A stretch of 64,000 bases of DNA from Candidatus Hydrothermarchaeum profundi (lineage in GTDB: Archaea; Hydrothermarchaeota; Hydrothermarchaeia; Hydrothermarchaeales; Hydrothermarchaeaceae): positions 210,332-274,331 of the forward strand of contig MTMF02000009.1 of the NCBI GenBank assembly GCA_002011125.2, read 5' to 3'. How positions within the stretch are numbered: position 1 is the first letter of the stretch; the number at the start of each line of letters is the position of its first letter. Position numbers and translations under genes: made by a program. The notes below the pieces were generated by a model. That model searched no databases. It was not told the origin of the DNA and saw nothing but the letters and a program-made list of their open reading frames with translations. Shown piece after piece: positions 13,212 through 29,377 of this stretch.

Positions 13212-15473
13212 TTAAAACCTCTCTATTACTTTTTCAAATTCATCTAACCAGTTTAATAATCCCTGTAAAGTTCTCCTCCCTCCTAAATAAGGATAAATTT
13301 TTTCTATATATGTGATCGTTTTCCTTCTAATCTCTTCTGTTTTTTGTAAAGCTAACTCGGAGTTCTTAGCCCTTTCAGCTTCTACTAGCTCCTGCTTCGT
13401 TAGTGATAAATATTCATTGATTTCTAAATTGAGCTTACCTGCCGCTTCCCTAAGATTTTTCATTATTCGACTACATCTCTCATGTACAGATTCCTTTTCT
13501 AAGGCAGATTCCCTAAAAATCTCCCTTATCCTACTTCTCATTTCAAGAGAGCCGTCTTCCATGACTGTTTTTAGAAATGTCTCTGGAGAAACCTTGCCAC
13601 TGAGAATTAGCATCTCAATATCAGAGAGATCACTGCACACTATATTGCCCTCTTTTGCTAGCTTGCTAACCAAGTTGGGGCAATTCCTTTTCCCCTCTTT
13701 CTTCATCTCTCCTATAAACTCTAATGCAGTGCCTATTGGAGTCACCAAGTGCTCTACGGCGATTTCTAATGCTTGACATAGGTCGTCTATATGTTCCCAA
13801 GTTTCATTAAGAAGCTCTGGGGGCATTCCCCTGCGTCGCCCTATTTTAGCTTGTATTCCTAAAAAGTTTGCGAGAGCCATACTTTTTAATCTGAAAATGT
13901 ATGGGATTTCTAAATACTCTACTCTCGCTTTATTACCGTCCCTTATAACTCTCAAAGGTACTAGAGTTTTATTGTACTCGTCGCTATTTATTAATGCAGA
14001 ATTAGGATATGCCATCAGGACATCGCTAAAACTAAAAATAGGCAATACAGGATAATTGATAGACCCCTTGATGATATCAGAAACTAATAATAGCTCCTCT
14101 GAAACTTCAGATAGCGCATTTTTAGCCTTTGGTCTAGTAGTAATAATAAAAACACCGGGAATTATCCCCTCCCGTAGACACATCGAAATAATCTCTTTAG
14201 ATTTTTTAATATAGTTCAGCTCGCAGCCATCAGAGGTTTTCTTAAAATATTTAATTTTTGATAGAACAAAACTTTCAACGCCTATCTGCAGTTTCCTGAA
14301 GTTTGCTTCCTTAAATTTCTTTAACAATGCATAATCGATGCTTTCCACTCTAACCATGGCGCCAAAAATAAGTTTATCGCTTAATCCATGCAATCTTATC
14401 TTATCCAACAAGTTCTCTACCCATCTTCGATTCTGGACAAAGTGATCATCCTCGAAGGTAATCCTTGTTAAACCATTTTCAGCTGCCTTCTCTATTACAT
14501 TAAGGACCTTGCCTACAGGATATCTCCTACCGGGTAGATTGCTAACACTGCAGTAAGAGCATTTTCCCCAGTTGCATCCTCTTTGCACATAAAGGCTTAA
14601 ACCATCCCATTTTCTTTTTTTTATTTCGTCCCATGGGAAATCCAATGGGAGGTCTTCCATCTCACTTCTTGAAGGATATGTATATAAATTCCGAGAAAAT
14701 TCTTTATATCCTATTGGAAACTCCTCTTTATTTTCTTCCTCCCACGCTCTCTTGGATTCCTCATAAGCCTCCTCCGAATCTACTTTCAAAATATGCTTTC
14801 CATTCCTTGAATTAACGATTACACCACTAAGAGGAAACGAAATCTCTATGCCTTTAATTTTTCTTTTTATATGGATATTTTTAAGACAATCTGCCTGCTT
14901 CTCAGTTATAGGACTCTTATACTGCGCAGAGCTTATAAGTTCTATTAACTCTTCGCCTAGAAAATCCACGTCTTTTCTAGCAAATTTCAAGCTCTCTTCC
15001 AAAGGCACTTTAAGTTCTTCATTTTCCGGGGCTCTTTTTAGATATTCAAGGATAAGGGGAAAAACTAAGTCTCCTTCCCCTTCTACCACGACATCAATTC
15101 CTACCGCATTCGATAAGGGTATGGCATTATCTTCGACGCCATGTCCTCCAACGACAACAACTACTCGGGGATCAACCTCCTTAACCTTTATTACTGTTAT
15201 AAGGTTCTCTTTAAGTTCTATAGAGCTTAATATCGAGACAGCAACTACATCGTAGTTTCTACTCGCTACCTTTTCTAATAACTCCTCCTTATCTATAGAA
15301 AAATCAACCTCATGGCCTACATTTTTCAATAGTTGGACAAACTGCAGGATCGTTGGAGCTTCATCCCGGTTATACTTACTATAATCGAGATAGAAAGCTA
15401 TCTTTTTTGGAGAGGTCGTTTTTAGCATTTTAACTAGTATCTCACCTACAACTAAAAAACTATTTGTATTCAT
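13212..15473 (-). CDS. B12-binding radical SAM protein
   Basis: Large cytoplasmic protein of 753 residues. Residues 20-150 resemble the cobalamin-binding Rossmann domain (VVVVVGGHGVEDNAI, VEGEGD). A radical SAM core follows with cluster cysteines 300, 305 and 308 in CNWGKCSYC, a C-x4-C-x2-C spacing rather than the common C-x3-C-x2-C. The helical C-terminal third matches nothing I know. Class B enzymes of this kind often methylate unactivated carbon or phosphorus; the substrate cannot be read from the context. It diverges from the HD hydrolase with a 13-base gap. Confidence 0.8.
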   Translation of the reverse strand: MNTNSFLVVGEILVKMLKTTSPKKIAFYLDYSKYNRDEAPTILQFVQLLKNVGHEVDFSIDKEELLEKVASRNYDVVAVSILSSIELKENLITVIKVKEVDPRVVVVVGGHGVEDNAIPLSNAVGIDVVVEGEGDLVFPLILEYLKRAPENEELKVPLEESLKFARKDVDFLGEELIELISSAQYKSPITEKQADCLKNIHIKRKIKGIEISFPLSGVIVNSRNGKHILKVDSEEAYEESKRAWEEENKEEFPIGYKEFSRNLYTYPSRSEMEDLPLDFPWDEIKKRKWDGLSLYVQRGCNWGKCSYCSVSNLPGRRYPVGKVLNVIEKAAENGLTRITFEDDHFVQNRRWVENLLDKIRLHGLSDKLIFGAMVRVESIDYALLKKFKEANFRKLQIGVESFVLSKIKYFKKTSDGCELNYIKKSKEIISMCLREGIIPGVFIITTRPKAKNALSEVSEELLLVSDIIKGSINYPVLPIFSFSDVLMAYPNSALINSDEYNKTLVPLRVIRDGNKARVEYLEIPYIFRLKSMALANFLGIQAKIGRRRGMPPELLNETWEHIDDLCQALEIAVEHLVTPIGTALEFIGEMKKEGKRNCPNLVSKLAKEGNIVCSDLSDIEMLILSGKVSPETFLKTVMEDGSLEMRSRIREIFRESALEKESVHERCSRIMKNLREAAGKLNLEINEYLSLTKQELVEAERAKNSELALQKTEEIRRKTITYIEKIYPYLGGRRTLQGLLNWLDEFEKVIERF

Positions 15474-15486
15474 CTAATATTTTTTC

Positions 15487-16101
15487 ATGGACTTTGAAAA
15501 ACTAAAGGAAGAGGTTGCTAAAAAAATGAATGCGCCTGGCCATGATTTCCTACATGTTGTAAGAGTTTATAATCTTGCAAAAAAGATTGGAAGGAATGAG
15601 AACTGCGATATGGACATTCTACTAGCTGCTTCTCTACTGCATGACATAGGCAGAGGAGAAGGTGTAGAGCATTCTAAAAAATCTGTCGAAATCGCTGGAG
15701 AGATATTGAGAAAGATCGACTTTCCTGAAGAAAAAATAAGAGACGTACTGTACGCAATTAGCCTGCATAGATATCGGGATGGGATTACTCCTCATACGCT
15801 GGAGGGAAAGATTCTACAAGATGCAGATAGATTGGATGCTATAGGGGCTATTGGGATTATAAGATGTTTCACTTATGGTGGGGCCCATGGTAGGATGGAC
15901 TACCATCCAGAGGATCCATTCTTTGAGACGCCTAGGAGACTTGAAGGCGACCGGTATTCGTTAGACCATTTCTACGATAAATTATTCAAGCTTAAAAATA
16001 CTCTACATACAGAAATGGCCCGCAAAATAGCAGAAGGTAGGTATGAGTTTATGCGGGAATTTCTCAGAAGATTGAAAGACGAGATAGACAGCCAAAGCTA
16101 A
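15487..16101 (+). CDS. HD-domain phosphohydrolase
   Basis: Metal-dependent phosphohydrolase of about 204 residues. The HD signature is complete: His23 in HDFLHVVRV, His52-Asp53 in LLHDIGRG, and Asp in LQDADRLDAIGAIG. The family includes YedJ/YpgQ-like nucleotide hydrolases. The C-terminal segment (HFYDKLFKL, TEMARKIAEGR) is typical of those. The ATG lies 13 bases from the divergent B12 radical SAM start. Its last four bases overlap the convergent moaA-like gene. Confidence 0.9.
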   Translation: MDFEKLKEEVAKKMNAPGHDFLHVVRVYNLAKKIGRNENCDMDILLAASLLHDIGRGEGVEHSKKSVEIAGEILRKIDFPEEKIRDVLYAISLHRYRDGITPHTLEGKILQDADRLDAIGAIGIIRCFTYGGAHGRMDYHPEDPFFETPRRLEGDRYSLDHFYDKLFKLKNTLHTEMARKIAEGRYEFMREFLRRLKDEIDSQS

Positions 16102-17018
16102 ATTGTACTTCGTTGCCTTATTTGTTTACTAAGTTTTGCTGCCTCACTAAGGATCTCCATTATTTCTTCATCAGAAATGCCTCTCCTTATTGGTCCTAAG
16201 AGATCGAACACGTATCTATCATCGTCGATCATAAAAAATCTCAATTTGCCATCAGCCGTTATACGTAGCAGTTTACATCTGAGACCACTGCATTCATCTG
16301 GATCTTGGACTGCCTTACAAGTAACGATTTGAGAATTACCTACATGGTATACCATTCTATCATATTTAGATCGCCTGACCTCAAGACTGTCAGCTCTTTT
16401 TTCTAGATATTTTTCAAGCTCACTTATCGGATAATAGTTGTCTCCATAGAACTCTTTGTTTTCCCTTGTTTCTATAAGCTCGATGAACTGTATATTGCAA
16501 CCAACATCATTGGCAAAGACTATAATATCATCGATCTCATCTAAATTCTTTTCTTTCAACACCAAAGTGTTTATCTCAACGGGTATTCCTATAGATACAG
16601 CCTTCTTAATTCCCTCTAATACCTCTTCCAAGGTATCCTGTCCACCTATAGAGGCGTAGACTTCCTTCCTAAGAGTATCAAGGCTTACATTTATCCTATC
16701 CAAATAAATATCAGGATTCTCCTCAAGGAATTTCTTTAAAAAAACACCATTCGTTGTAATTGACAGTACCGAGATTTTTTTTAATTCTGAAAGTTTCCTC
16801 AATATCTCGGCTATATCCTTTCTTAAGAGAGGCTCTCCCCCTGTGATCTTTATTTTTCTTACGCCAATTCCAGTAGCTATATTGGCAATCCTTGCAATCT
16901 CATCGGGAGTAAACCTCTCACGACTAACCGTCTCCCGGTACCCCTCCTTATGGCAATAAATGCATTTTAGATTACAATCGGGGGTAACTGATATTCTTAA
17001 GCTTCCTATCAAGTTCAT
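16098..17018 (-). CDS. moaA: GTP 3',8-cyclase MoaA (variant C terminus)
   Basis: First step of molybdopterin synthesis: radical rearrangement of GTP. The 306-residue protein has the radical SAM motif CNLKCIYC near residue 15, the SAM-binding GGEP, and a C-terminal region ITADGKLRFFM. In typical MoaA that last part reads as a cluster site with three cysteines. Here the final cysteine position is Phe, and upstream cysteines are spaced C-x4-C. Either the second cluster is bound differently or this is a related enzyme. Stop codon TAG. TorD and Mo enzyme genes lie directly upstream. Confidence 0.82.
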   Translation of the reverse strand: MNLIGSLRISVTPDCNLKCIYCHKEGYRETVSRERFTPDEIARIANIATGIGVRKIKITGGEPLLRKDIAEILRKLSELKKISVLSITTNGVFLKKFLEENPDIYLDRINVSLDTLRKEVYASIGGQDTLEEVLEGIKKAVSIGIPVEINTLVLKEKNLDEIDDIIVFANDVGCNIQFIELIETRENKEFYGDNYYPISELEKYLEKRADSLEVRRSKYDRMVYHVGNSQIVTCKAVQDPDECSGLRCKLLRITADGKLRFFMIDDDRYVFDLLGPIRRGISDEEIMEILSEAAKLSKQIRQRSTI

Positions 17019-17026
17019 ATCTCGAA

Positions 17027-18121
17027 TTAAAACGTTTTTGGACTGGAAGGGAGATAAGGATAATCCTCCTTAATCATTTCCTCCTCCCTGACCAGATGGA
17101 AATTTTCCTTCAACATATTTTTTTCAGGAACACTCATGCAAAGCTTGGATATGCTACTGTAGTCTAATTGCTCTGCAGCTTTAATCATCGCTTCAACCTG
17201 AGTATAATCGTGCTCAATTATGGTTTTGGTAATCAAACCCAGGCCTCTATAAAAGTCCATGGCTACAATTCCCTCTCTGTATTCCCTCTTTATGTCTTCA
17301 TCGAAATTGTACTTATCTGCAATTTTTGATTTAAGCTCCTCGTTTACCAGGTCATCACAAAAATAGGGGACCCACTGTGCCATATGCTTAGTGATATGTT
17401 CCCTCTGTAGCTTTAAATACTGAAGGGCCAGTTCTTTGTCTCCCCTCTTCCATGCCTTAAGCTCGTCGTCACACAGCCTAAACATAAATTCTATCTCGAT
17501 TTTTATATCGTCAGGAGGATCATTTCCAAATCTCAGGGCAACATTATAAGATGCCATCCTGTAGAGGTCTTTAACTTCCTGGGTGGAATCCCCCATTGTC
17601 TGCTTTTCACTAAGATAAATGCTTTCATAACAGCAAACCCACGGCATTAGTCCATCGTAGAACACCATTAAATACTCTCCAGAGAGATCATCGGCTAGCT
17701 TTTTGACTTTTGCGCCTCTAAACCTCTCAACAAACTTAGAGATGAGATTTAGTCCTTCCTCTACCCGACTATCATTATAAATGCTGCATGCATCTCTTAT
17801 TTTCTCAGAAAAGGTTCCACTCAGTATATCCTTTACAAGCTCTAAAGAGGGATCAGTAAAGCTCCTGAATAATTGAAAATATATTTCCCTCCTTTTTTTT
17901 AAAAGCTTTACATATTCTTCCGGAGAATTCGGAATTTGTGGAACATGAGAAAAGTTAGGTTCCCTTCCCCGAATCAAATCATGCCATTCATCTTCATCGC
18001 TTACCAACATTGACTTAACCCAAAAAAGATAGCCATGTTTTTTATTCAATTTTTCCCATTTTTTACGCAGATCTGGATCTAACCAAGCTTTCACTTTTAC
18101 TGTGCTTCTATCCTTTTTCAT
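17027..18121 (-). CDS. TorD-family chaperone for molybdoenzymes (long form)
   Basis: All-helical cytoplasmic chaperone that helps cofactor insertion into complex iron-sulfur molybdoenzymes. At 364 residues it is much longer than usual TorD/DmsD proteins (about 200-220). The TorD part (about 85-310) shows PWVCCYESIYLSEKQTMGD and the PYFCDD motif near the end. The extra N-terminal 75 residues (KVKAWLDPDLRKKWEKLNKK) are charged and of unknown role. It belongs to the gene block of the cytoplasmic Mo oxidoreductase, directly after a small zinc ribbon. Confidence 0.82.
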   Translation of the reverse strand: MKKDRSTVKVKAWLDPDLRKKWEKLNKKHGYLFWVKSMLVSDEDEWHDLIRGREPNFSHVPQIPNSPEEYVKLLKKRREIYFQLFRSFTDPSLELVKDILSGTFSEKIRDACSIYNDSRVEEGLNLISKFVERFRGAKVKKLADDLSGEYLMVFYDGLMPWVCCYESIYLSEKQTMGDSTQEVKDLYRMASYNVALRFGNDPPDDIKIEIEFMFRLCDDELKAWKRGDKELALQYLKLQREHITKHMAQWVPYFCDDLVNEELKSKIADKYNFDEDIKREYREGIVAMDFYRGLGLITKTIIEHDYTQVEAMIKAAEQLDYSSISKLCMSVPEKNMLKENFHLVREEEMIKEDYPYLPSSPKTF

Positions 18122-18151
18122 CTCAAATCCTCCAAAAGAAAATCATTATAT

Positions 18152-18298
18152 TTAAAACCGTGGTTTCCGTGGACCATGAGTCACAGGTTTAACCAATTTG
18201 TTAATACTTCTCCTGCCGCACTCAGGGCACCCGTAGGTTTCCCACTCTTCTTTAACAAATCTGGTGCCACATCCACTACAACTATACCAGACAGACAC
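18152..18298 (-). CDS. Small zinc-ribbon protein (48 aa)
   Basis: Too short for routine gene calling, but well supported. It uses a GTG start at 18298, with AGGAGGTGA ending six bases upstream, inside the end of the preceding Fe-S gene. It has two paired-cysteine knuckles (CSGCG and CPECG) about 20 residues apart, as in rubredoxin-like zinc ribbons, and a basic C terminus. Its place between the Fe-S subunit and TorD suggests a role in assembly of the Mo enzyme, but no family is recognised. Confidence 0.7.
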   Translation of the reverse strand: MSVWYSCSGCGTRFVKEEWETYGCPECGRRSINKLVKPVTHGPRKPRF

Positions 18299-18304
18299 CC
18301 ACGC

Positions 18305-19144
18305 TCACCTCCTAACCTTTTTAACCCGGCTTAAGGCAGGCCTCCATCCCTTTTCCAATATAGGCACAGGGAAATCTTTAGGAATAGCGTAGAACACGTG
18401 GCCTATTCTCTCGATAATTCTCACCTTAGCCATCTCGCCAATATAGTTTTTCAAGTCTTCAAAGCGTCCAAATACCATACAACTCGTAGCACATTTCGTG
18501 GAACAAGCCGACCACATGCCATTATATTCAATTCTGGTGATAGGTTTCCTTTCTGCGAGTTTCTTTCCAGACAGTGGATTACCCTCCTCATCTACCAAGC
18601 GTCCTTTTTTGTCCCTTTTTATTCTGCCAATTTCATCATAAACTACGCTGTGAAGTTTGCCACCCCCCTCCAGAACATACCTGTAAATGTGTTTAATTTC
18701 CTCCTCGGTATAAGTCTTAGTGTAATCGACCCTTCTCATGCAAAAATCGCACTTAAAGACCCTCCCATATCTACTATCCCATTGCATAGCCCCAAAGGGG
18801 CATGCCTGCATACAACGCTTACATCCTATACAAGCAGGGGTATCCACATATACGATCCCATCTTTGGTTCTTCTCTTAACTGCATTCGTAGGACATGCTT
18901 CGAGACAAGGAGCAGGGTCACAGTGATAACAAAGCATTGGAATATAAAGCGTCTTAATCCTACCGTTAGATCTCACAGGTCCTACTTGCATCACCCGAAT
19001 CCATCTTGGTCCCATGGGTATATCATTCTCAAGCTTACAGTGTACCTCGCAACTAAAACAGCCTATGCATTTTTTTAAATCAATAAACATTACAATGTCA
19101 TTTGATGAAAGTTCTTTTTGGGGGGCCTCTGCCATTAATTCCAT
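18305..19144 (-). CDS. Four-cluster Fe-S subunit of the Mo oxidoreductase (paralogue with insertion)
   Basis: Electron-transfer subunit of the DmsB/PsrB/NrfC type, 279 residues, no signal peptide. Four cysteine groups are visible: CIGCFSCEVHC, CYHCDPAPCLEAC, CIGCKRCMQAC, and CDFC with CSTKCATSC. Compared with its upstream paralogue, about 65 charged residues (YTKTYTEEEIKHIY... to ERKPITRIEY) are inserted before the last cysteine group. A 44-base tract is identical to the paralogue. It presumably passes electrons between the Mo subunit and a partner; no membrane anchor lies in the block. Confidence 0.9.
   Translation of the reverse strand: MELMAEAPQKELSSNDIVMFIDLKKCIGCFSCEVHCKLENDIPMGPRWIRVMQVGPVRSNGRIKTLYIPMLCYHCDPAPCLEACPTNAVKRRTKDGIVYVDTPACIGCKRCMQACPFGAMQWDSRYGRVFKCDFCMRRVDYTKTYTEEEIKHIYRYVLEGGGKLHSVVYDEIGRIKRDKKGRLVDEEGNPLSGKKLAERKPITRIEYNGMWSACSTKCATSCMVFGRFEDLKNYIGEMAKVRIIERIGHVFYAIPKDFPVPILEKGWRPALSRVKKVRR
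18783..18826. repeat. 44-base tract identical to 19832-19875
   Basis: This stretch inside one Fe-S subunit gene is identical to 19832-19875 in its paralogue. It codes for the GCKRCMQACPFGAMQ region. Beyond it the genes diverge quickly. Recent gene conversion or strong constraint at the DNA level would both explain it. Confidence 0.85.
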
Positions 19145-19146
19145 TT

Positions 19147-19422
19147 TTATTTCTCCTTTACCTTAGGTTTCAATTTTTCATATGGAATGATCTCACGTTT
19201 TTCCGGATATGCCCATGAAGGGCTGATAAGAGTATTTTCTTCATCTCTTGCAAAGAAAGCACTTCCAAGTCTCCAAGCATTTTCCTCTCTTATAACCGTA
19301 GTTGCATATTTCCATTGTTTTCCCGGCTTCAAAATTATTTTCTGTAATTCCCTCTGTACCATGCCCATTACTTCAATTTTAGTACCGGGTATAAACCTAG
19401 AGGAAGATTTTTTTCTAGGCAT
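19147..19422 (-). CDS. Small satellite protein related to the tail of the Fe-S subunit
   Basis: A 91-residue basic protein with no cysteines. Its C-terminal half (RLGSAFFARDEENTLISPSWAYPEKREIIP) lines up with the C-terminal extension of the upstream Fe-S subunit (KLASVFLGGMGNDTLVCPAWAFPEKNFFIP). The protein thus looks like a detached version of that extension, perhaps a small structural subunit of the complex. It starts two bases upstream of the next Fe-S gene's ribosome site region and is clearly in the same operon. Function unknown. Confidence 0.6.
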   Translation of the reverse strand: MPRKKSSSRFIPGTKIEVMGMVQRELQKIILKPGKQWKYATTVIREENAWRLGSAFFARDEENTLISPSWAYPEKREIIPYEKLKPKVKEK

Positions 19423-19494
19423 TTAGACTCACATCAAACTTAAAATAAAAAATAAATAGGAAGAAGAGTTTCTTCCCATTTTCAGTTAAGCAAC

Positions 19495-20292
19495 CTATTT
19501 TTTAGCCTCGACCTTAAGCTTCACTGCAGGTGTGATTTTTGTTACCTTCTCAACTAAAGCTCCAGGTTTCCTCCTTATCCTTGGGATAAAGAAATTCTTC
19601 TCAGGAAACGCCCACGCTGGACAAACAAGCGTATCATTTCCCATGCCGCCTAGAAACACTGAGGCCAGCTTTCTCGCCGTCCATTCCCTAAAGTACGTCA
19701 TGATATCATCAGGGTTACCAACATAGATACAGTGCGTAGCACATTTCGTAGCGCATGCCGGCTGCAAACCACGATCTATTCTGTCTATGCAATAGTCGCA
19801 TTTTATAACCTTATTAGTCCTGCTATCCCACTGCATAGCCCCAAAGGGGCATGCCTGCATACAACGCTTACATCCAATGCATTTCTCACTATCCACGTAC
19901 ACTATACCATCCTTAGCTCTTTTAATAAGAGCTCCAGTAGGGCAGGATTCCACACAAGCTGCATGACCGCACATGAAGCAATTCATTGGATAATAGATTG
20001 TCTTAAGATGTCTTCCTACTCTCTTAGGTCCTATCTGCATTACACGCATCCTTCTAGGACCCATTGGATCATCGTGTTCAAGTTTACAGTGCGTTTCACA
20101 ACTGAAGCACCCTATACATCTCCTTAGATCTACGAAAAATGTTATATGATCCGGGATTATACCCCATCTATCCGCAGCTTGCACGTTCCAATAGTTCATC
20201 GCCTCCTTTCTCTCATTGGCATACCTGCCATTTTCAGGAGCCAGGTTCAACAGCTTATCTTTCAGTGTTAGTCTTTCAGACTGATTGCTCAT
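19495..20292 (-). CDS. Four-cluster Fe-S subunit of the Mo oxidoreductase
   Basis: Cytoplasmic electron-transfer subunit of about 265 residues. It has four [4Fe-4S] cysteine groups (CIGCFSCETHC, CFMCGHAACVESC, CIGCKRCMQAC, CDYC with CATKCATHC), an N-terminal 40-residue extension, and a C-terminal tail with PAWAFPEK. The second ATG (20292) is chosen because GGAGG lies eight bases before it; longer starts would overlap the upstream gene. It ends with TAG, followed by GTT GCT TAA, so read-through would add only three residues. Confidence 0.9.
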   Translation of the reverse strand: MSNQSERLTLKDKLLNLAPENGRYANERKEAMNYWNVQAADRWGIIPDHITFFVDLRRCIGCFSCETHCKLEHDDPMGPRRMRVMQIGPKRVGRHLKTIYYPMNCFMCGHAACVESCPTGALIKRAKDGIVYVDSEKCIGCKRCMQACPFGAMQWDSRTNKVIKCDYCIDRIDRGLQPACATKCATHCIYVGNPDDIMTYFREWTARKLASVFLGGMGNDTLVCPAWAFPEKNFFIPRIRRKPGALVEKVTKITPAVKLKVEAKK

Positions 20293-20305
20293 TTTCATCG
20301 CCTCC

Positions 20306-22756
20306 TCACTTCGTCTCCCATTTCTCTCTTGGTACGCCCTTATAATATATCGCGGAGCCCTTCTCTGCAAACCTCATATAATGTCCTATAGTAACCGTGT
20401 CATCCTTGTCAGGGGATATATAATGTTCTGGACCTTTGCCTATGCTTTTCAAGAACTCCTTTACTTTCTCAACAGCATCATCCGGATCTTGGTCAGGGCG
20501 GTAAACTCTCACTAGATTGCATTTGTATTGCACTTGAGTATAAAATGGGTCTTTAATTGTGTCGTCTATCAGTTCGTTAACGTTTTGATACGGATAAAAC
20601 GGCTGATATTTGTCAAATCCCTCAGGCATCCAACAAGATGCCTCATCTACCATCTCATTGACCCATGCAACAGCGTATACTTTGCCATGGTCATTTTCAG
20701 CGATAACTAAATCACCGTCCTTTATCCCCAGCGTCTTCGCTGTGGAAGTATTGATGTTTATTATCATATGAGTCTCTAGTTCTGATGTCCACGGCCACCA
20801 ATGCCCCATTTCATGGAAGTGGGCGACGAGTCTTCCAGTTGTCAAATTTAGTGGATATCTCTCCCATACGTCTGGCCTTGACACTGGGGTGCAGCTCGCT
20901 TCAATGTGCATTGGAAGCGGATTGAAGCCAAGTTGCTCTAAAGCCTCTGAGTAAAATTCTACTTTACCTGTAGGAGTTGGGAATCTTTTATCTGTCCCTG
21001 GATAGTTTACTCCCTCCTTATACATTATCCACTGAGCGCCTCTGATAGTGGCTTCTGGATCAGAGTACATCATGGCCTCGTCCTTTGTCTCTGCCGGCCA
21101 CATGACTCCTCCCTTCGGGGACTTCTCAGGATCCATACTATCCATCGTAATACCTGCCACAAAGCTCTCCTGAGAATGGAACCAGTCCTGACAAACACGC
21201 TCGTCTATAATTGTCTGCTCTTTATCCTTCCACCAGCTTTTACCATCTGGTGCATAATAGGCCTCGGCGAACTCAAATCTCTTAGCTAAGCCAGCCCAAA
21301 AATCTATATCGGCTCTGCATTCCCAGTTTCTCGGTATAACTTGGTTATGCCACTGGCAATGCCTATTATTTCCATGATGCACCACTCCCTCATGCTCTAA
21401 GAAGCTTGTTATCGGGAAAGTGGCATGCATCCAGCTTCCAGTCTCATTTGGTGTGAAGGAGATATGCACCCCACAATAAAGGTTTTTCATAAACTCCCTT
21501 ACCTTATTGTTGTTAGGCCATTGGAGTATGTGATTACCATTCCAAATAAGACCTTTTATTGGATATGGCTTTCCTGTGTATCCGGGATTAATCATGCATG
21601 CCGATGCTGTATCCCCCCATGGTATGATTTTATCAGCCAATATGGGCTCCTTTATCTTTTGGATATACGGCCCTAAGTCTTTACCAGCACTTAACACTGG
21701 TCTACAATTATGTAGCCAGTTCCAGCCCCCTCCTTTTACTCCAACATTACCTGTGATAGCCACTAGGAACTGATATCCTCTATTAGCTTGGGCTGCAGGA
21801 TATTGCTGTGCCGTTCCTAAACAGCCTGTGAAGTGAGTCCTGCGTGGATAGGCGATTTTCTCTGCTGCAAGCCTAATGTCCTCGGCAGGTACCCATGTGA
21901 TATTTTCTGCTTTCTCAGGCGTATAACCTTTCACGGACTCGGCGAACTTATCGAAGCCCACCGTCCATCTATCAATAAAATCGTGATCTATCCCATCTAT
22001 CTCATGTATTAAAACATTCGCCAAAGTTAAAGTGAGATAAGAGTCCGTTGATGGTCTAATTCTTAACGCTAGATCCGCTTTTGCCATCGAGGCATTAAAC
22101 CGTGGGTCAACACAAATGTAAAATGCTCCATTCTTATCTTGCGCCTCAAGATACCATTTTTCTGTAATTATCTCCAACGCAGCAGCATTAGACCCTGCCT
22201 GAAATATTGTATCACTGTTCATAGCATCTTGACAGGGGTTCATGAGCCTTAGAAACTCTTTAGCTCCAAAAACATACTGACCAATAGCCCCAGGACTCTC
22301 GCAACAAAGGGGGCCCTGACCATATACATTCGGTGTACCGTACATTGCAAGAAACCTTGCTCCTCCTAGCTTATTTCCATAACTGCTTCTACCTGTTCTA
22401 TGGCATCCAACAGTGTGTGCTCCCCATTTTTCTCTAATATATTTCAGTCTGTCTGCTACAAAATCCAGCGCTTCATCCCATGTTGCCCTTTTGAATTTTC
22501 CATTTACATTGTCCTCCCTAATCGCAGGATATTTATATCGAAGAGGGTTATAGGCATGCTGTATTTGAGCAGATCCCTTACAACAAAGTGAACCGTAATT
22601 TTGTGGATGTTCTTCATCCCCCCAAATGTCAACTATACGATTATCTTTAATGAAAATTTTCATGCCACAGCCGCTTTCACACATGTTATCGCAAGTCGTG
22701 TAACGGATAGTATCATAGTCTCTTATAGATTCCTGCGCCTGTTTTAAAAAAACCAC
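20306..22756 (-). CDS. Cytoplasmic molybdopterin oxidoreductase, catalytic subunit
   Basis: DMSO-reductase-superfamily enzyme of 816 residues that binds two pyranopterins and Mo or W. The N-terminal Fe-S motif is CDNMCESGC with LCCKG. A Cys pair in GPLCCESPG stands where the metal ligand usually lies, so a cysteine ligand is likely. There is no Tat signal, so it should stay in the cytoplasm. The GTG at 22756 is chosen because GGAGGTGA precedes it. The family includes thiosulfate/polysulfide reductases and acetylene hydratase-like enzymes; the substrate is unknown. Two Fe-S subunits, a 91-aa protein, a zinc ribbon and TorD follow. Confidence 0.88.
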   Translation of the reverse strand: MVFLKQAQESIRDYDTIRYTTCDNMCESGCGMKIFIKDNRIVDIWGDEEHPQNYGSLCCKGSAQIQHAYNPLRYKYPAIREDNVNGKFKRATWDEALDFVADRLKYIREKWGAHTVGCHRTGRSSYGNKLGGARFLAMYGTPNVYGQGPLCCESPGAIGQYVFGAKEFLRLMNPCQDAMNSDTIFQAGSNAAALEIITEKWYLEAQDKNGAFYICVDPRFNASMAKADLALRIRPSTDSYLTLTLANVLIHEIDGIDHDFIDRWTVGFDKFAESVKGYTPEKAENITWVPAEDIRLAAEKIAYPRRTHFTGCLGTAQQYPAAQANRGYQFLVAITGNVGVKGGGWNWLHNCRPVLSAGKDLGPYIQKIKEPILADKIIPWGDTASACMINPGYTGKPYPIKGLIWNGNHILQWPNNNKVREFMKNLYCGVHISFTPNETGSWMHATFPITSFLEHEGVVHHGNNRHCQWHNQVIPRNWECRADIDFWAGLAKRFEFAEAYYAPDGKSWWKDKEQTIIDERVCQDWFHSQESFVAGITMDSMDPEKSPKGGVMWPAETKDEAMMYSDPEATIRGAQWIMYKEGVNYPGTDKRFPTPTGKVEFYSEALEQLGFNPLPMHIEASCTPVSRPDVWERYPLNLTTGRLVAHFHEMGHWWPWTSELETHMIININTSTAKTLGIKDGDLVIAENDHGKVYAVAWVNEMVDEASCWMPEGFDKYQPFYPYQNVNELIDDTIKDPFYTQVQYKCNLVRVYRPDQDPDDAVEKVKEFLKSIGKGPEHYISPDKDDTVTIGHYMRFAEKGSAIYYKGVPREKWETK

Positions 22757-22840: not shown

Positions 22841-22947
22841 ACTCAAATATGGATTTGCTCACATAAATGCACAACTGTCGATAGATTATTCGAAAAAATA
22901 GATAGAGTATAAGTAAGATTAAAATTAAAAAAGAGGTGGGAAGAACA

Positions 22948-23556
22948 TTGCAAATTTCATGCATAATAGTTGCTGGCGGAAAAAGTAGTAGGATGGGTTA
23001 CGACAAAAAGTTTATTGAGCTTAATGGGTCTATCTTTCTAGAGTATGCTATTAGGGCAGCCGAGAAGATAGCAGATGAGATAATAATTGTGGTAGGTTCT
23101 AACACACAAAAAGATGAAACCCGTAGGTTTACTCATCTTAAGATTGCAGTTGATAAAGAGCTTAATAGAGGCCCAGTAATGGGTATCCTCACAGGACTGG
23201 AAAACTGTAGCCACAATTACGCTGCTGTAATGCCGGTAGATACTCCCCTTATCAACCCTGAGATCTATAAGTACATGATTTCGTTGTCCCATAGCTTTGA
23301 TGCGGTTATCCCTAAAGATGGTGAACATATAGAACCGATGCATGCGATTTATCATGTAAAAACAATGACTACTGCCTGTAAAAAAGCGTTGAAAAAGGGG
23401 GAAGAATCTGCCTATTTAACCGTGAAATATCTTAAGAAAGTTATGTTCGTTCCGGTAGAAGAACTAAGAAAATTTGACGAAAATTTAATGACTTTCCGCA
23501 GCGTTAATACACCGGAGGATGTAAAGAAGCTTAAAGAAATGTTAAAAGGACGTTAA
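22948..23556 (+). CDS. mobA: Molybdenum cofactor guanylyltransferase MobA
   Basis: Adds GMP to molybdopterin to make the guanine dinucleotide cofactor used by DMSO-reductase-family enzymes. It has the nucleotidyltransferase signature VAGGKSSRMGYDKKF near the N terminus and PVDTPLINPEIY for the metal/NTP site, with family-typical length (about 200). The TTG at 22948 is favoured because GAGGTG lies nine bases upstream; a GTG at 22936 would add four residues. The moeA gene follows after one base. It lies divergently beside the Mo oxidoreductase it would serve. Confidence 0.92.
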   Translation: MQISCIIVAGGKSSRMGYDKKFIELNGSIFLEYAIRAAEKIADEIIIVVGSNTQKDETRRFTHLKIAVDKELNRGPVMGILTGLENCSHNYAAVMPVDTPLINPEIYKYMISLSHSFDAVIPKDGEHIEPMHAIYHVKTMTTACKKALKKGEESAYLTVKYLKKVMFVPVEELRKFDENLMTFRSVNTPEDVKKLKEMLKGR

Positions 23557-23557
23557 A

Positions 23558-24799
23558 ATGGATGTTAGAACCAGAGGTTTTTATAGGAGAACTCCTGTAG
23601 ATGAAGCCCTAAATATCCTGCTCAAAAGAGTTTCCCCTATAGGGCAAGAATTTATCGATATAAGCGTAGCGGTAGGCAGAGTATTGGGGGAAGACTTAAC
23701 CGCTAAGGAAGATATACCTCCATTCGATAGAGCTGCAATGGATGGATATGCAGTTAAGGGCGAGAATACTTTTGGTGCTTCACAGACGAATCCCATTTAT
23801 TTTAAGGTAATAGGAGAAGCCAGTATTGGAAAGCTCTCTAAACTAGAAGTTAGAGAATTTGAAGCGGTGCGGATAATGACGGGCTCTCCTATGCCTAAAG
23901 GAGCTAATGCTGTTGTTATGTTCGAGCATACAAACGAGTTAGACGGGGAAATTGAAGTACTAAAGCCAGTGCCTCCGGGTAAAAATGTATCTCGCAAAGG
24001 AGAGGATGTAAAAAAAGGTGGAACTCTACTTAAGAAAGGCAGAGTACTTAAACCTCAAGATGTGGGAATGTTAGCTGCTCTAGGGATGAACCAGGTAAAA
24101 GTTCAAAAGAAACCGAGCGTATCCATCATATCTAGTGGAGACGAGCTTACTCCGCCTGGGGAGACGCTTCAAGAGGGAAAGATATACGATATTAACAGTT
24201 ACTCCCTAGCATCATATGTGAAGAAGTTAGGCGGAATACCATATATTTTCGGAATTGTGAGAGATAAAGAAAAAGATATCTCTAATGCTATATTGAAGTC
24301 ACTGCAACACGATATGATTATAATCAGCGGATCTACTTCGGTGGGTAAGAGAGATATAGTGCCAAAAATTGTTTCAGAGATGGGTAAGATACTAGTTCAC
24401 GGTGTAGCTATTCGCCCAGGTGAACCTACAGGGTTTGGTATTATATCGGATAAAATAGTTTTTATGCTCCCCGGCTATCCCGTCGCAGCTATAGTTGGAT
24501 TTGAAACATTTGTTAGACCTGCTCTGCAAAAGATGCAAGGAACTGAGCTTAAAAGCCCTTACCCTAAGATAAAAGCATATCTAAGCCGGAAGATATCATC
24601 AGAACTGGGGAGAAGAGACTTTGCAAGAGTCCGCATATGGAAAGAAGGAGATAAACTTATAGCAGAACCTGTTAGGACAAAAGGGTCAGGCATAATCTCA
24701 AGTTTGGTAAAAGCGGATGGGTTCATTATCGTGCCTGAGAATACAGAAGGATTGGAGAAAGGAACAGAAATAGAGGTGAACTTGTTCGATAGGTATTGA
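23558..24799 (+). CDS. moeA: Molybdopterin molybdenumtransferase MoeA
   Basis: Inserts molybdate (or tungstate) into adenylated molybdopterin. The 413-residue protein has the family order: N-terminal PPFDRAAMDGYA, MTGSPMPKGANAVVM, the MogA-like domain with SGDELTPPG and SGSTSVGKRD, then GYPVAAIVGFETFVRPAL and a C-terminal beta-barrel (PVRTKGSGIISSL). It is co-transcribed with mobA. A second, longer MoeA lies at 33.5 kb; archaea often carry two, possibly split between Mo and W. Confidence 0.96.
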   Translation: MDVRTRGFYRRTPVDEALNILLKRVSPIGQEFIDISVAVGRVLGEDLTAKEDIPPFDRAAMDGYAVKGENTFGASQTNPIYFKVIGEASIGKLSKLEVREFEAVRIMTGSPMPKGANAVVMFEHTNELDGEIEVLKPVPPGKNVSRKGEDVKKGGTLLKKGRVLKPQDVGMLAALGMNQVKVQKKPSVSIISSGDELTPPGETLQEGKIYDINSYSLASYVKKLGGIPYIFGIVRDKEKDISNAILKSLQHDMIIISGSTSVGKRDIVPKIVSEMGKILVHGVAIRPGEPTGFGIISDKIVFMLPGYPVAAIVGFETFVRPALQKMQGTELKSPYPKIKAYLSRKISSELGRRDFARVRIWKEGDKLIAEPVRTKGSGIISSLVKADGFIIVPENTEGLEKGTEIEVNLFDRY

Positions 24800-26381: not shown

Positions 26382-26786
26382 TTAAGAAGTCTGTAATATA
26401 AGCGCGCCAGGATAACACCAAGATACACACTTAGGCTCTCCATTACAGACATCACATTTCATTGCCTTGTTAGCATCTTCATCCATATATATACCATTAA
26501 AGGGACATGCTGTAACACATGCGCGGCATCCAGTACACTTCTCTACATCTAACAGGGTTCTTCCTGTTTCTTCGTCTTTATAGAGAGCATCATATTTACA
26601 TGCTATAATGCATGGAGGATTCTTGCACTGCCTACAGACTGCTGGAACACTTTCTGCATATTTGCTATCAACATTCACCTTAATCAATGCTTTTTCTGGC
26701 CAAAAAACTTCTCTCTTCTCCATCGAACAAGCAAGTTGACACAGCTTACAGCCAGTACACTTCTCTTTTATGATTTTAACAAACAT
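26382..26786 (-). CDS. Four-cluster ferredoxin subunit paired with AOR
   Basis: Electron-transfer protein of about 134 residues of the HycB/AorB kind. It has repeated cysteine motifs CTGCKLCQLAC, CRQCKNPPCIIAC, CTGCRACVTAC and CDVCNGEPKCVSWC, enough for up to four [4Fe-4S] clusters. The ORF overlaps the end of the AOR gene, so the two subunits are made together. The likely job is to accept electrons from aldehyde oxidation and pass them to ferredoxin or another carrier. Confidence 0.92.
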   Translation of the reverse strand: MFVKIIKEKCTGCKLCQLACSMEKREVFWPEKALIKVNVDSKYAESVPAVCRQCKNPPCIIACKYDALYKDEETGRTLLDVEKCTGCRACVTACPFNGIYMDEDANKAMKCDVCNGEPKCVSWCYPGALILQTS

Positions 26787-26788
26787 CC

Positions 26789-28708
26789 TCAAAGTCGCTC
26801 CACCTCCTCGGCGAGGTCTTCCATACCTAGCTCTATGAGCTTTTCTTTTTTCGGTATTCCATTTTCATCCCACTGCCTGAGTTCGTAATATTCCTCCAGC
26901 ATCTTCTTGAAGTCCTTATACTTTATTTGAACTCCTTTAGTAGGTCCATCCTGAATCGGCTCATTGAAGATCCGCCATGGAAGGGCTTCGTCATCTTTTC
27001 TCCTTAGTCCCTCACGAACATTGAATAATCGAGTCATGTTTATTATTCTCTCGCTTGTCCTCTCAAGCTCTCTCCTATCTCTAATATCGTCCCAACCTGT
27101 AGCTCTTGCTACTAAATCAGCAATCGGATCAGAAATTGGAGGTAACGCAAAATCACACATTATAGAAGAAAACTTTAGACCATAATGATGCTGTTGCCTA
27201 TAAACGATGTATGCCTTACCCTCAGGATTCCATCTTTCAGTCTCAATTGGAATATTCTTCTCACCTTTTTCTGGGTCAGCATCCAACCAAAATGTACCCC
27301 ATACTTCCACCCCTATAGGCCATGATCTGAGGTGGCATCCCCCCCTATCGGCTGTTGCATAGGCCAAAGGCATACTTATAGCAGCCCTAGGTTCATATGC
27401 TGGGAGCTCTAGTCCTTTCACTTGCATGGCAAATCTTTCAGAGCCTTTTCCAATCTTCTCAGACGCTCGTTTTACCCCCTCTGCCAACAGATCTCCTATA
27501 CCTTCCCTTCTAGCAATCTTATTTACCATTGTGATCATTGCCTCTGAGTCCCCCCATCTCAACTCCACTCCGTCAAGGTCCTCCTTCGAAAGTATTCCTT
27601 TTTCGTAACACTCCATAGCCCAAGCTAATGTATTCCCAGTTGAAATTACGTCCATTCCCATCCTATCGCACAGGAGATTTAACGCAACTACTGCCGGTAA
27701 GTCTGAAAGATTGCAGTTTGATCCTAACAATGCTAGGGTCTCATACTCCGGGCCTTCGACCATTGAGCCAGCATACGGGCCTTCCTCTACCTTGAGAAAA
27801 TTGCTACACGCCATTGGACATTGAATGCAAGCCCTATTTCTGACTCTAAGTTTTTTAACAGCCTCTGGCCCCAGTTTCTCACCCATCTCTTTAAAAAATC
27901 CTGACTGGAAATTTTTGGTTGGAAGTGCCCCCACCTCATTCGTCCAACCAGATAACTCCGGAGTTCCTGCCTGATCTTTCCAGCTTATAGCAAAAAGTGA
28001 GTCTGGTTGCTCTATTAGATGCCGAGTTGTAGTCTCTTTTGCTGCTTCAACAAATCCTTCAGGATCTGCAACTTCAACCCTGCCTGTTCCCTTTACCGCT
28101 ACTGCTTTTAAATTCTTTGAGCCAAAAACAGCTCCAGCTCCACCACGGCCGTGCTGCCGATAATACTCATGATTAACCAGGGCATATCTGACAAGGTTTT
28201 CACCAGCTGGACCTATAGTTAGAACTGAGATATCTTTCCCGTATTTCTCCTTTAAGGCATCCTCTGTTTCGTGAGTATCTTTCCCCCATAAAGACTCTGC
28301 GTCTTCTATTTTTACTTTTTCATCTTTTATCCAAACATAACTGGGGTTCTCCGCTTTTCCTTCAACTATTAACGCATCATATCCTGCGTATTTGAGTTCT
28401 GCTCCAAAATATCCTCCAGCAAAACTATCCAAGAAAATACCGGTAAGAGGAGACTTAGTTACTAGCGCATACTTACCGCATGCTGGTGCAATTGTTCCTG
28501 TGAGAGGCCCGGTTACTATTATAGCTTTATTTTCCGGTGAAAGAGGATCGGTCCCTTTAGGTATCTCATGGTAAAGCATTCTAGCGCCAAGCCCCATCCC
28601 TCCCACGTATTTACGTGCCCATTCAAGGTTTAAGGGTTCATCTACAGCTTCTTTGGTAGTCAAGTTTACCCTTAATACCTTGCCCTTATATCCTCTAACA
28701 GATGTCAT
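26789..28708 (-). CDS. Tungsten-containing aldehyde:ferredoxin oxidoreductase
   Basis: Oxidises an aldehyde to the carboxylic acid with a tungstopterin and one [4Fe-4S] cluster. The 639-residue protein has the N-terminal pterin-domain pattern (GYKGKVLRVNLTT, YVGGMGLGARMLYHEIP) and the cluster cysteines in CIQCPMACSNF with a fourth in the C-terminal part. The ATG at 28708 replaces longer starts because the protein family begins right there. The preceding gene, mtbC, ends 30 bases upstream. Which of the AOR, formaldehyde or glyceraldehyde subtypes this is cannot be told by eye. Confidence 0.93.
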   Translation of the reverse strand: MTSVRGYKGKVLRVNLTTKEAVDEPLNLEWARKYVGGMGLGARMLYHEIPKGTDPLSPENKAIIVTGPLTGTIAPACGKYALVTKSPLTGIFLDSFAGGYFGAELKYAGYDALIVEGKAENPSYVWIKDEKVKIEDAESLWGKDTHETEDALKEKYGKDISVLTIGPAGENLVRYALVNHEYYRQHGRGGAGAVFGSKNLKAVAVKGTGRVEVADPEGFVEAAKETTTRHLIEQPDSLFAISWKDQAGTPELSGWTNEVGALPTKNFQSGFFKEMGEKLGPEAVKKLRVRNRACIQCPMACSNFLKVEEGPYAGSMVEGPEYETLALLGSNCNLSDLPAVVALNLLCDRMGMDVISTGNTLAWAMECYEKGILSKEDLDGVELRWGDSEAMITMVNKIARREGIGDLLAEGVKRASEKIGKGSERFAMQVKGLELPAYEPRAAISMPLAYATADRGGCHLRSWPIGVEVWGTFWLDADPEKGEKNIPIETERWNPEGKAYIVYRQQHHYGLKFSSIMCDFALPPISDPIADLVARATGWDDIRDRRELERTSERIINMTRLFNVREGLRRKDDEALPWRIFNEPIQDGPTKGVQIKYKDFKKMLEEYYELRQWDENGIPKKEKLIELGMEDLAEEVERL

Positions 28709-28738
28709 GATATAGTTTTTAACTAAAACCAAATATTA

Positions 28739-29377
28739 TTATTTCGGTAATACCTTTTTCGCTACAGCCACAGCACTTTTAGAGTCTTCTCCATACCCGT
28801 CCGCTCCTATTTCCTCTGCATAGTCTTCTGTTATAGGAGCACCTCCTATTAGTACCTTAAACTCAGATCTAATCCCTTTATCCCTTAGGATTTCTATGAA
28901 ATCCTTCATAGCGCCCATAGTCGTAGTCATCATCGCACTTAAACCAATTCCCTGAGCACTTTCTTTAATAGCAGTTTCAATTATTTTCTCCAGAGGAACG
29001 TCGGCTCCTAGATCGATTATTTCGTAGCCGTTTACCTTTAGCATTATGGTGACTATGTTTTTACCTATGTCATGAATATCTCCTTCAACAGTCGCCATCA
29101 CGATTTTAGGGCCTTTGCCATCTTTCTTTGAACTTAGTATATGAGGTTCAAGCACTTCTACAGCGGAAGTCATCGCATCGGCAGACATCAATACATGAGG
29201 CAAAAATATCTTACCCTTTTCAAATAACTCACCAACGACTCTCATCCCTGCCCCATATCCTTTTTCTATAGCGTCTATTGGGTTTACTCCCTTTTCTAGC
29301 GACAATTTGGCTAACTCAACTGCCTTATCTACATCTCTCTCTATGATAGCCTCTTTCATTGACTCAAATATCTCCAT
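28739..29377 (-). CDS. mtbC: Methylamine-type corrinoid protein (MtbC/MtmC family)
   Basis: Carries the methyl group on cobalamin between a methylamine methyltransferase and an acceptor methylase. The 212 residues hold an N-terminal four-helix cap (1-88) and a cobalamin domain with the axial-ligand motif DIHDIG (Asp100, His102, Gly105) and GGAPIT. It diverges by 69 bases from mtbB, its probable partner; the MtbC name rests on that adjacency. AOR, ferredoxin and aminotransferase genes follow on the same strand. The acceptor methylase MtbA is not in the window. Confidence 0.9.
   Translation of the reverse strand: MEIFESMKEAIIERDVDKAVELAKLSLEKGVNPIDAIEKGYGAGMRVVGELFEKGKIFLPHVLMSADAMTSAVEVLEPHILSSKKDGKGPKIVMATVEGDIHDIGKNIVTIMLKVNGYEIIDLGADVPLEKIIETAIKESAQGIGLSAMMTTTMGAMKDFIEILRDKGIRSEFKVLIGGAPITEDYAEEIGADGYGEDSKSAVAVAKKVLPK

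Follow-up and report, generated by a model that had tools for sequence, protein, structure and literature searches.

The window analysed here is a stretch of 64,000 nucleotides (nt) from Candidatus Hydrothermarchaeum profundi (contig MTMF02000009.1, positions 210,332 to 274,331), whose genome is 2.19 Mb in 19 contigs. Coordinates are window positions unless another contig or locus is named. The window holds a minus-strand operon (22756 to 16098) for a molybdenum or tungsten (Mo/W) enzyme of the DMSO-reductase superfamily. The gene order is the catalytic subunit α (816 amino acids, aa), the iron-sulfur subunit β1 (267 aa), the small protein γ (91 aa), a second iron-sulfur subunit β2 (279 aa), a zinc ribbon (48 aa), a TorD-type chaperone (364 aa) and moaA. 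The gaps between them, read from the sequence, are 7, 72, 2, 6, 30 and 8 nt. A first-pass annotation of this DNA had described the first six open reading frames (ORFs), and all six are present on this strand and in this order. The operon extends beyond that set into moaA (16098..17018, minus strand), which scores over the NF001199 cut-off. It lies 8 nt downstream of torD and is probably on the same transcript.

α (20306..22756, minus strand) is the catalytic subunit with the Mo/W-bisPGD site. Its most plausible start is the GTG at 22756, which is preceded by GGAGGTG. PF04879 (51.6 bits), PF00384 (105.8 bits) and PF01568 (62.3 bits) are all over their cut-offs. The predicted structure (pLDDT 80.2, pTM 0.86) has the superfamily fold, with Z up to 39.7. 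Fold comparison does not separate formate dehydrogenase (FDH), Nap, acetylene hydratase (AHY), arsenite oxidase, Arr and Psr, whose Z values overlap at about 32-40. The [4Fe-4S] ligands are C22, C26, C30 and C58, and an acidic residue, E27 (22676-22678), follows the second of them. The metal ligand is C151 (codon 22304-22306), which is constant across all 17 rows of an alignment, Cys-type FDHs included. A pair of cysteines had been proposed for the metal-ligand region. C151 is conserved, but its neighbour is not: the motif in the α clade is P[LI]C[CTG]E, so C, T or G comes next and the single conserved Cys is the ligand.

β1 (19495..20298, minus strand; most plausible start ATG 20298) and β2 (18305..19144, minus strand) are the two paralogous four-cluster subunits that the first-pass annotation took them to be. 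PF13247 matches them with 85.8 and 66.8 bits respectively. The 16 Cys of each are spaced for four clusters, and none of them varies across 8 aligned sequences per subunit. In a quick tree each subunit forms one clade. β1 ends in a long C-terminal tail, residues 196-247 (19558-19713). β2 has an insert of about 68 aa within its cluster-IV motif and no tail of the β1 type. These motifs predict nine clusters in all, one in α beside its C151-ligated bis-pterin site and four each in β1 and β2.

The enzyme appears to be cytoplasmic and without a membrane anchor, as first read. There is no twin arginine within the first 40 residues of α, β1, γ, β2 or TorD, and the Kyte-Doolittle score of the six proteins stays at or below 1.16 in every 19-residue window. 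Hence neither a Tat signal nor a membrane helix is evident. The sole RR within the first 40 residues is in the zinc ribbon and is not a signal peptide. No gene for an NrfD-type membrane subunit lies between 16098 and 24799, nor is there one among the identified genes of the operons of relatives.

The TorD-type chaperone (17027..18121, minus strand) is outsized, as had been noted. PF02613 scores 66.7 bits against a cut-off of 22.2, and its PDB matches include TtrD, AF0160 and a TorA chaperone. Its conserved N-terminal extension (YLFW..M) is also found in two chaperones of an Altiarchaeales locus (L104). The zinc-ribbon ORF (18152..18298, minus strand) does lie in this operon but it has only sub-threshold zinc-ribbon matches. 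It is missing from the gap between β2 and torD in 10/10 relatives, and there is no convincing homologue among 24 other genomes (best E 0.002). Since it is not conserved it is probably not part of the system, and we reject it as a component.

Conservation, ancestry and the origin of γ

The operon was compared across 101 genomes. These are 23 genomes of the phylum Hydrothermarchaeota (this one and 22 relatives from the same class, G001-G022) and 78 from elsewhere in the domain. α has matches at E<=1e-60 in 15 of the 101, counting its own genome and one that has only a 41% paralogue. The other 13 are relatives with α at 69-84% identity, and their 13 loci were surveyed for gene order. β1 directly follows α in 13/13. 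γ and then β2 come next in all 12 loci whose contig goes on. Of the 11 that extend further, 10 have TorD after β2. In the other one, G021, TorD is at another site (L154) with a radical-SAM gene immediately after it. G003 and G022 have β1-γ-β2 at contig edges, where α would fall past the contig end. The recurrence of the order α-β1-γ-β2 in relatives with α of 67-84% identity means the operon is not due to chance. This is a soluble Mo (or W) enzyme with two four-cluster subunits and γ, shared by heat-vent archaea of the deep-branching Hydrothermarchaeota.

In G011 (L034, contig C80) α is broken into frames of 152 and 716 aa, which is either a frameshift or an assembly error. The 41% paralogue was set aside in the survey. 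It has its own β and occupies L035 283-2748 and L036 11125-13554, behind two moeA genes and a moaA. Its ligand loop is GPLCGENNG, and it is a separate, deeper branch of the α clade.

γ (19147..19422, minus strand) has no match in Pfam or NCBIfam and no PDB sequence match. It had been read as a small accessory protein. It is real and conserved, but it is not an unrelated one. When profiles are compared with hhalign (12 γ and 8 β1 sequences), γ aligns with 52 columns of the β1 tail at a probability of 97.7% and an E of 2e-12. The comparison with β2 gives no match. In each of 16 of the 23 phylum genomes the γ profile has exactly two matches, one to γ and one to the β1 tail next to it, and it has none in the remaining 85 genomes (7 of the phylum, 78 others). 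Given the profile match and the two sites per genome, γ is a free-standing copy of the β1 tail, carried in its residues 37-88 (19159-19314). A random small ORF is ruled out by that match and by the recurrence in 16 genomes. A missing tail that split from β2 is not favoured, because γ aligns with the β1 tail and not with β2, and lies upstream of β2. For the same reasons a tandem copy of the 3' end of β1 would be the simpler route. Since β1 and β2 are each one clade of the quick tree, the doubled β and the copied tail predate the spread of the sampled families of the phylum.

The first-pass annotation had suggested a phylogeny and a survey of gene order. The survey is the one above, in which the order is kept, and the phylogeny was run as quick trees only, with SH-aLRT support and no bootstrap. 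In the tree of the N-terminal region α has a clade of its own, supported at 99, and shares its side with Psr, AHY and DmsA. The FDHs and NapA are opposite (98 SH-aLRT). The whole-protein tree recovers the same clade with 100 support. α reaches no NCBIfam cut-off. Its best score is 254 bits to TIGR01591 (cut-off 666.25), for which three clade relatives score 288-384 bits, and its second is 189.4 bits to PhsA NF012032 (cut-off 694). HDCR FdhF (174 bits) and T. thermophilus Psr (171 bits) tie as its top PDB sequence matches. SoeA has no model among the NCBIfam matches listed and no chain among the PDB matches of α.

Homologues from the Altiarchaeales WOR_SM1_SCG (L104, L075) and Anaerolineae (L039, L105) are in the same α clade with 99-100 support. 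They are simple α-β pairs. Their one β is short, 206-208 aa where it is complete (L104, L075), and lacks the extended tail. No β2 or γ is seen adjacent, with L105 cut by a contig end. The Altiarchaeales genome G102 has two α homologues (56% and 48%). L104 also holds an extra iron-sulfur protein and a 77-aa ORF after β, beside its two TorD-like chaperones with extended N-terminus.

Flanking genes and the radical-SAM partner

Most neighbouring genes in the phylum are cofactor genes. Divergent to α on the plus strand are a mobA-like gene (22936..23556; PF12804) and moeA (23558..24799; PF03453, PF00994, PF03454). The mobA-like gene adjoins α in 9 of the 13 relative loci.

On the minus strand a B12-binding-domain radical-SAM protein (13212..15473; PF02310 and PF04055) is a candidate further component. 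Of the 16 genomes with the system 15 have it, and of the 7 without the system none does (p=3.3e-5); by family the counts are 7/7 against 0/3 (p=0.008). Here and below the sample is the 23 phylum genomes in ten families, with the system scored by the γ profile (16/23), and p-values are only guides since these are metagenome-assembled genomes (MAGs) of uneven completeness and shared ancestry. The one system genome that lacks it is G017, which is 82% complete. The start of the gene overlaps the torD stop in G005 and G021. It lies 470 nt behind torD in G008 and 25 nt behind dsrAB in G022. It has no PDB sequence match, and the Cys of its CX4CX2C motif are invariant in 9 sequences. From the co-occurrence and the neighbourhood we argue that this protein belongs to the picture.

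An HD-domain gene (15487-16101) adjoins the radical-SAM gene. In G020 (L150 2136-2657) a similar-looking HD-type ORF and a MoaD-like ORF, both named by eye, flank it.

The window has two further enzymes of note. Between 53016 and 59950 there is a second Mo enzyme with a Tat signal and an FDH-type ligand loop, ICHSTTVAGL, that scores 528.9 bits to TIGR01591 (cut-off 666). Its locus also encodes an iron-sulfur subunit, NrfD, a polyferredoxin/FlpD protein and its own TorD, and NiFe-hydrogenase genes adjoin. It is probably an exported FDH. An aldehyde ferredoxin oxidoreductase is at 26382-29377. The same run of genes encodes a ferredoxin-type iron-sulfur protein downstream of it and, upstream, a corrinoid-binding protein.

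Substrate and rival explanations

The best explanation is a soluble cytosolic Mo/W oxidoreductase of composition α-β1-γ-β2 that would be loaded by its own TorD. The β1 tail may dock on α or on another subunit. β2 has no such tail, so γ could provide a second docking piece for it. β1 and β2 together would act as an electron wire, long or with two ends, that connects to a soluble carrier rather than a membrane quinone. We have high confidence in the α-β1-γ-β2 architecture read from the sequence.

The first-pass annotation left the substrate open. Our best guess places it at the cytoplasmic sulfite node, as a sulfur oxyanion. The enzyme might oxidize sulfite to sulfate, or split thiosulfate into sulfite and sulfide, and so it might feed or drain DsrAB where the route through Sat and AprAB is absent. 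We put this substrate, and with it the whole explanation, at a probability of about 0.35, or about one in three.

The position of α on the Psr, AHY and Dms side of the tree is counted in its favour, and so is the distribution of sulfur genes. AprA is found (E<=1e-30) in 6 of the 23 phylum genomes, though none is over the curated cut-off. Of these 6 genomes 1 has the system, against 15 of the 17 without AprA (Fisher p=0.0034). Sat is in 4 of the 23. DsrA is over its cut-off in 13, of which 11 have the system. In the Anaerolineae genome G256, a single 13-kb contig carries α together with dsrA and dsrB, and the distance between α and dsrAB is about 6 kb. We also count the TauE/SafE-type exporter that follows β2 in G021, and the radical-SAM gene behind dsrAB in G022.

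Several points weigh against a sulfite-node substrate. The complementarity with AprA is not significant by family (1/3 against 6/7, p=0.18). The genome of Ca. H. profundi itself holds AprA, Sat and the system together. Within the phylum the link to DsrA is weak, with the system in 11 of the 13 genomes with DsrA over cut-off and 5 of the 10 without. DsrA is absent from two of the three genomes outside the phylum that have α (G101, G102), and PMC4975002 likewise reports that no dissimilatory sulfite reductase was found in these Altiarchaeales. In G101, α is surrounded by lipoate-assembly and ETF-type genes and not by sulfur genes. We identified no residue in the active site of α that is specific to sulfur, and Cys ligation is common to many families.

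There are further observations on the sulfur genes. The AprA cluster of the Ca. H. profundi genome (C9:1015630-1021000, L138) has AprB-like, Sat-fusion and AsrC-like ORFs, and it resembles the sat-apr-asr cluster that PMC6759336 gives for related MAGs. The same genome has two different DsrAB pairs, C9:126293-128411 (L132) and C9:741986-744147 (L131). The divergent DsrAB (333 bits) adjoins ORFs that resemble a cytochrome-c/NorB-type oxidoreductase, named by eye. PMC12948486 assigns Hydrothermarchaeota DsrAB copies to its transitional archaeal type. Across the Anaerolineae, DsrA is in 14/298 genomes (E<=1e-60) and α in 2/298, with an overlap of 1. A transporter resembling the MOT1-type one of G021 lies between α and dsrAB in G256, and a similar one is in G101.

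Among the rivals the strongest is an oxidoreductase for an organic substrate, for example one with a dehydroxylase-type reaction, that has no role in sulfur metabolism. We consider it unlikely, yet likelier than the other rivals. The DMSO-reductase superfamily does act on organic substrates. The ETF-type and lipoate-assembly genes near α in G101 fit such a role, as does a PadH-like NAD(P)-linked flavoprotein near α in L104. Against it are the cofactor genes that make up most of the surroundings of α within the phylum, and the links with AprA, DsrAB and the radical-SAM protein next to DsrAB. The lipoate-assembly genes of G101 might also be taken as a link to sHdr sulfur oxidation. We do not count them that way, since elsewhere that contig carries ORFs that by eye resemble ETF-type and membrane-oxidoreductase genes, and it has no sHdr.

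A polysulfide, sulfur or tetrathionate reductase that lost its export and its anchor and uses soluble electrons differs from the sulfite-node explanation in substrate only. PhsA is the second NCBIfam score of α, T. thermophilus Psr ties for its top PDB match and β1 has Psr subunit B as its best PDB match. PMC6759336 reports TtrAB for some MAGs of the phylum only, alongside a Sat-Apr-AsrC cluster. On the other side 189 bits is far from 694, there is neither a Tat signal nor an NrfD-type subunit in the operon, and the ligand loop of Psr is one residue longer. This makes such a reductase rather unlikely, slightly more so than the organic-substrate enzyme.

It is improbable that α is a non-redox or hydroxylating enzyme of the AHY type, in which E27 would activate a metal-bound water and the substrate would be organic. 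E27 is in 12/12 clade sequences at the position of AHY Asp13, a Glu and not an Asp. The GxPN-x7-Cys spacing is the same as in AHY, AHY is on the same side of the N-terminal tree, and among the PDB matches of the 41% paralogue it ranks fourth, at 232 bits. For α itself, however, AHY scores under HDCR FdhF and Psr. C, T or G follows the ligand in place of Ile. Two four-cluster subunits also imply electron transfer, which is not known for AHY.

A soluble FDH or CO2 reductase, as automatic annotation might label α, is very improbable despite the best NCBIfam score (254 bits to TIGR01591) and the top PDB match to HDCR FdhF, and we reject it on motif, cut-off and tree, because 254 bits is far under 666.25, the Cys/Sec-His pair is missing from 12/12 clade sequences, the tree sets the FDHs on the opposite side with 98 support, and the window has another enzyme with an FDH-type CH motif (53016-55778). 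Formate is disfavoured and sulfite-node chemistry is the best-supported guess.

A more specific version of the sulfite-node explanation adds the radical-SAM protein. It could be a dedicated maturase or a pathway partner, for example one that modifies a residue or the cofactor of α, as Mmp10 does in McrA. The matured complex would be a soluble AMP-independent sulfite/sulfate or thiosulfate enzyme that replaces Sat-AprAB beside early-type DsrAB. We regard the combination of these claims as a long shot. The radical-SAM partner would open a new way to test how an enzyme of the DMSO-reductase family is matured.

Should the substrate indeed belong to the sulfite node, the enzyme would close a gap in a phylum that has DsrAB but, in the genomes examined, mostly no Sat or AprA. 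PMC6775978 reports DsrAB and no thiosulfate reductase in its Hydrothermarchaeota genomes.

Comparison with known systems

The first-pass annotation found no match to a system known to it, and none was found to a characterised operon in the collections searched. Plasmid records gave matches at <60% identity only, and a literature search turned up no description of this complex.

The PsrABC and PhsABC enzymes (T. thermophilus Psr, 2vpw) share the fold of the superfamily, the Cys metal ligand, a four-cluster B subunit and the side of the N-terminal tree. They are exported, are anchored by an NrfD-type C subunit and have one B subunit, whereas the system here has no Tat signal, no anchor and two B subunits plus γ. 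The longer ligand loop of Psr and the missed PhsA cut-off also set them apart.

SoeABC is alike by description. It has a cytoplasmic Cys-ligated A subunit and a four-cluster B subunit according to PMC10100899 and PMC8076601, the former of which lists SoeA and AH as cytoplasmic, Cys-ligated families. SoeC, however, is a membrane NrfD-type subunit and the operon here has none.

AHY (2e7z) is cytoplasmic and shares the GxPN-x7-Cys loop and the acidic residue after the second cluster Cys. Its Asp13 is thought to activate the metal-bound water, and its Ile142 is important. It has C-x2-C where α has C-x3-C, and Ile after the ligand where the α clade has C, T or G. It is a monomer and is not known to have electron-transfer subunits.

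The soluble FDHs and HDCR (7qv7, 9vap) give the top overall sequence scores. HDCR is a cytosolic complex with several iron-sulfur subunits. But the Cys/Sec-His motif of these enzymes is absent here, with the His after the ligand missing in 12/12 clade rows, and they are on the opposite side of the tree.

If the architecture holds, this system adds to the membrane-bound iron-sulfur molybdoenzymes a soluble form that has a pair of wire subunits and, as a third one, a duplicated tail. It is a new arrangement within a known superfamily.

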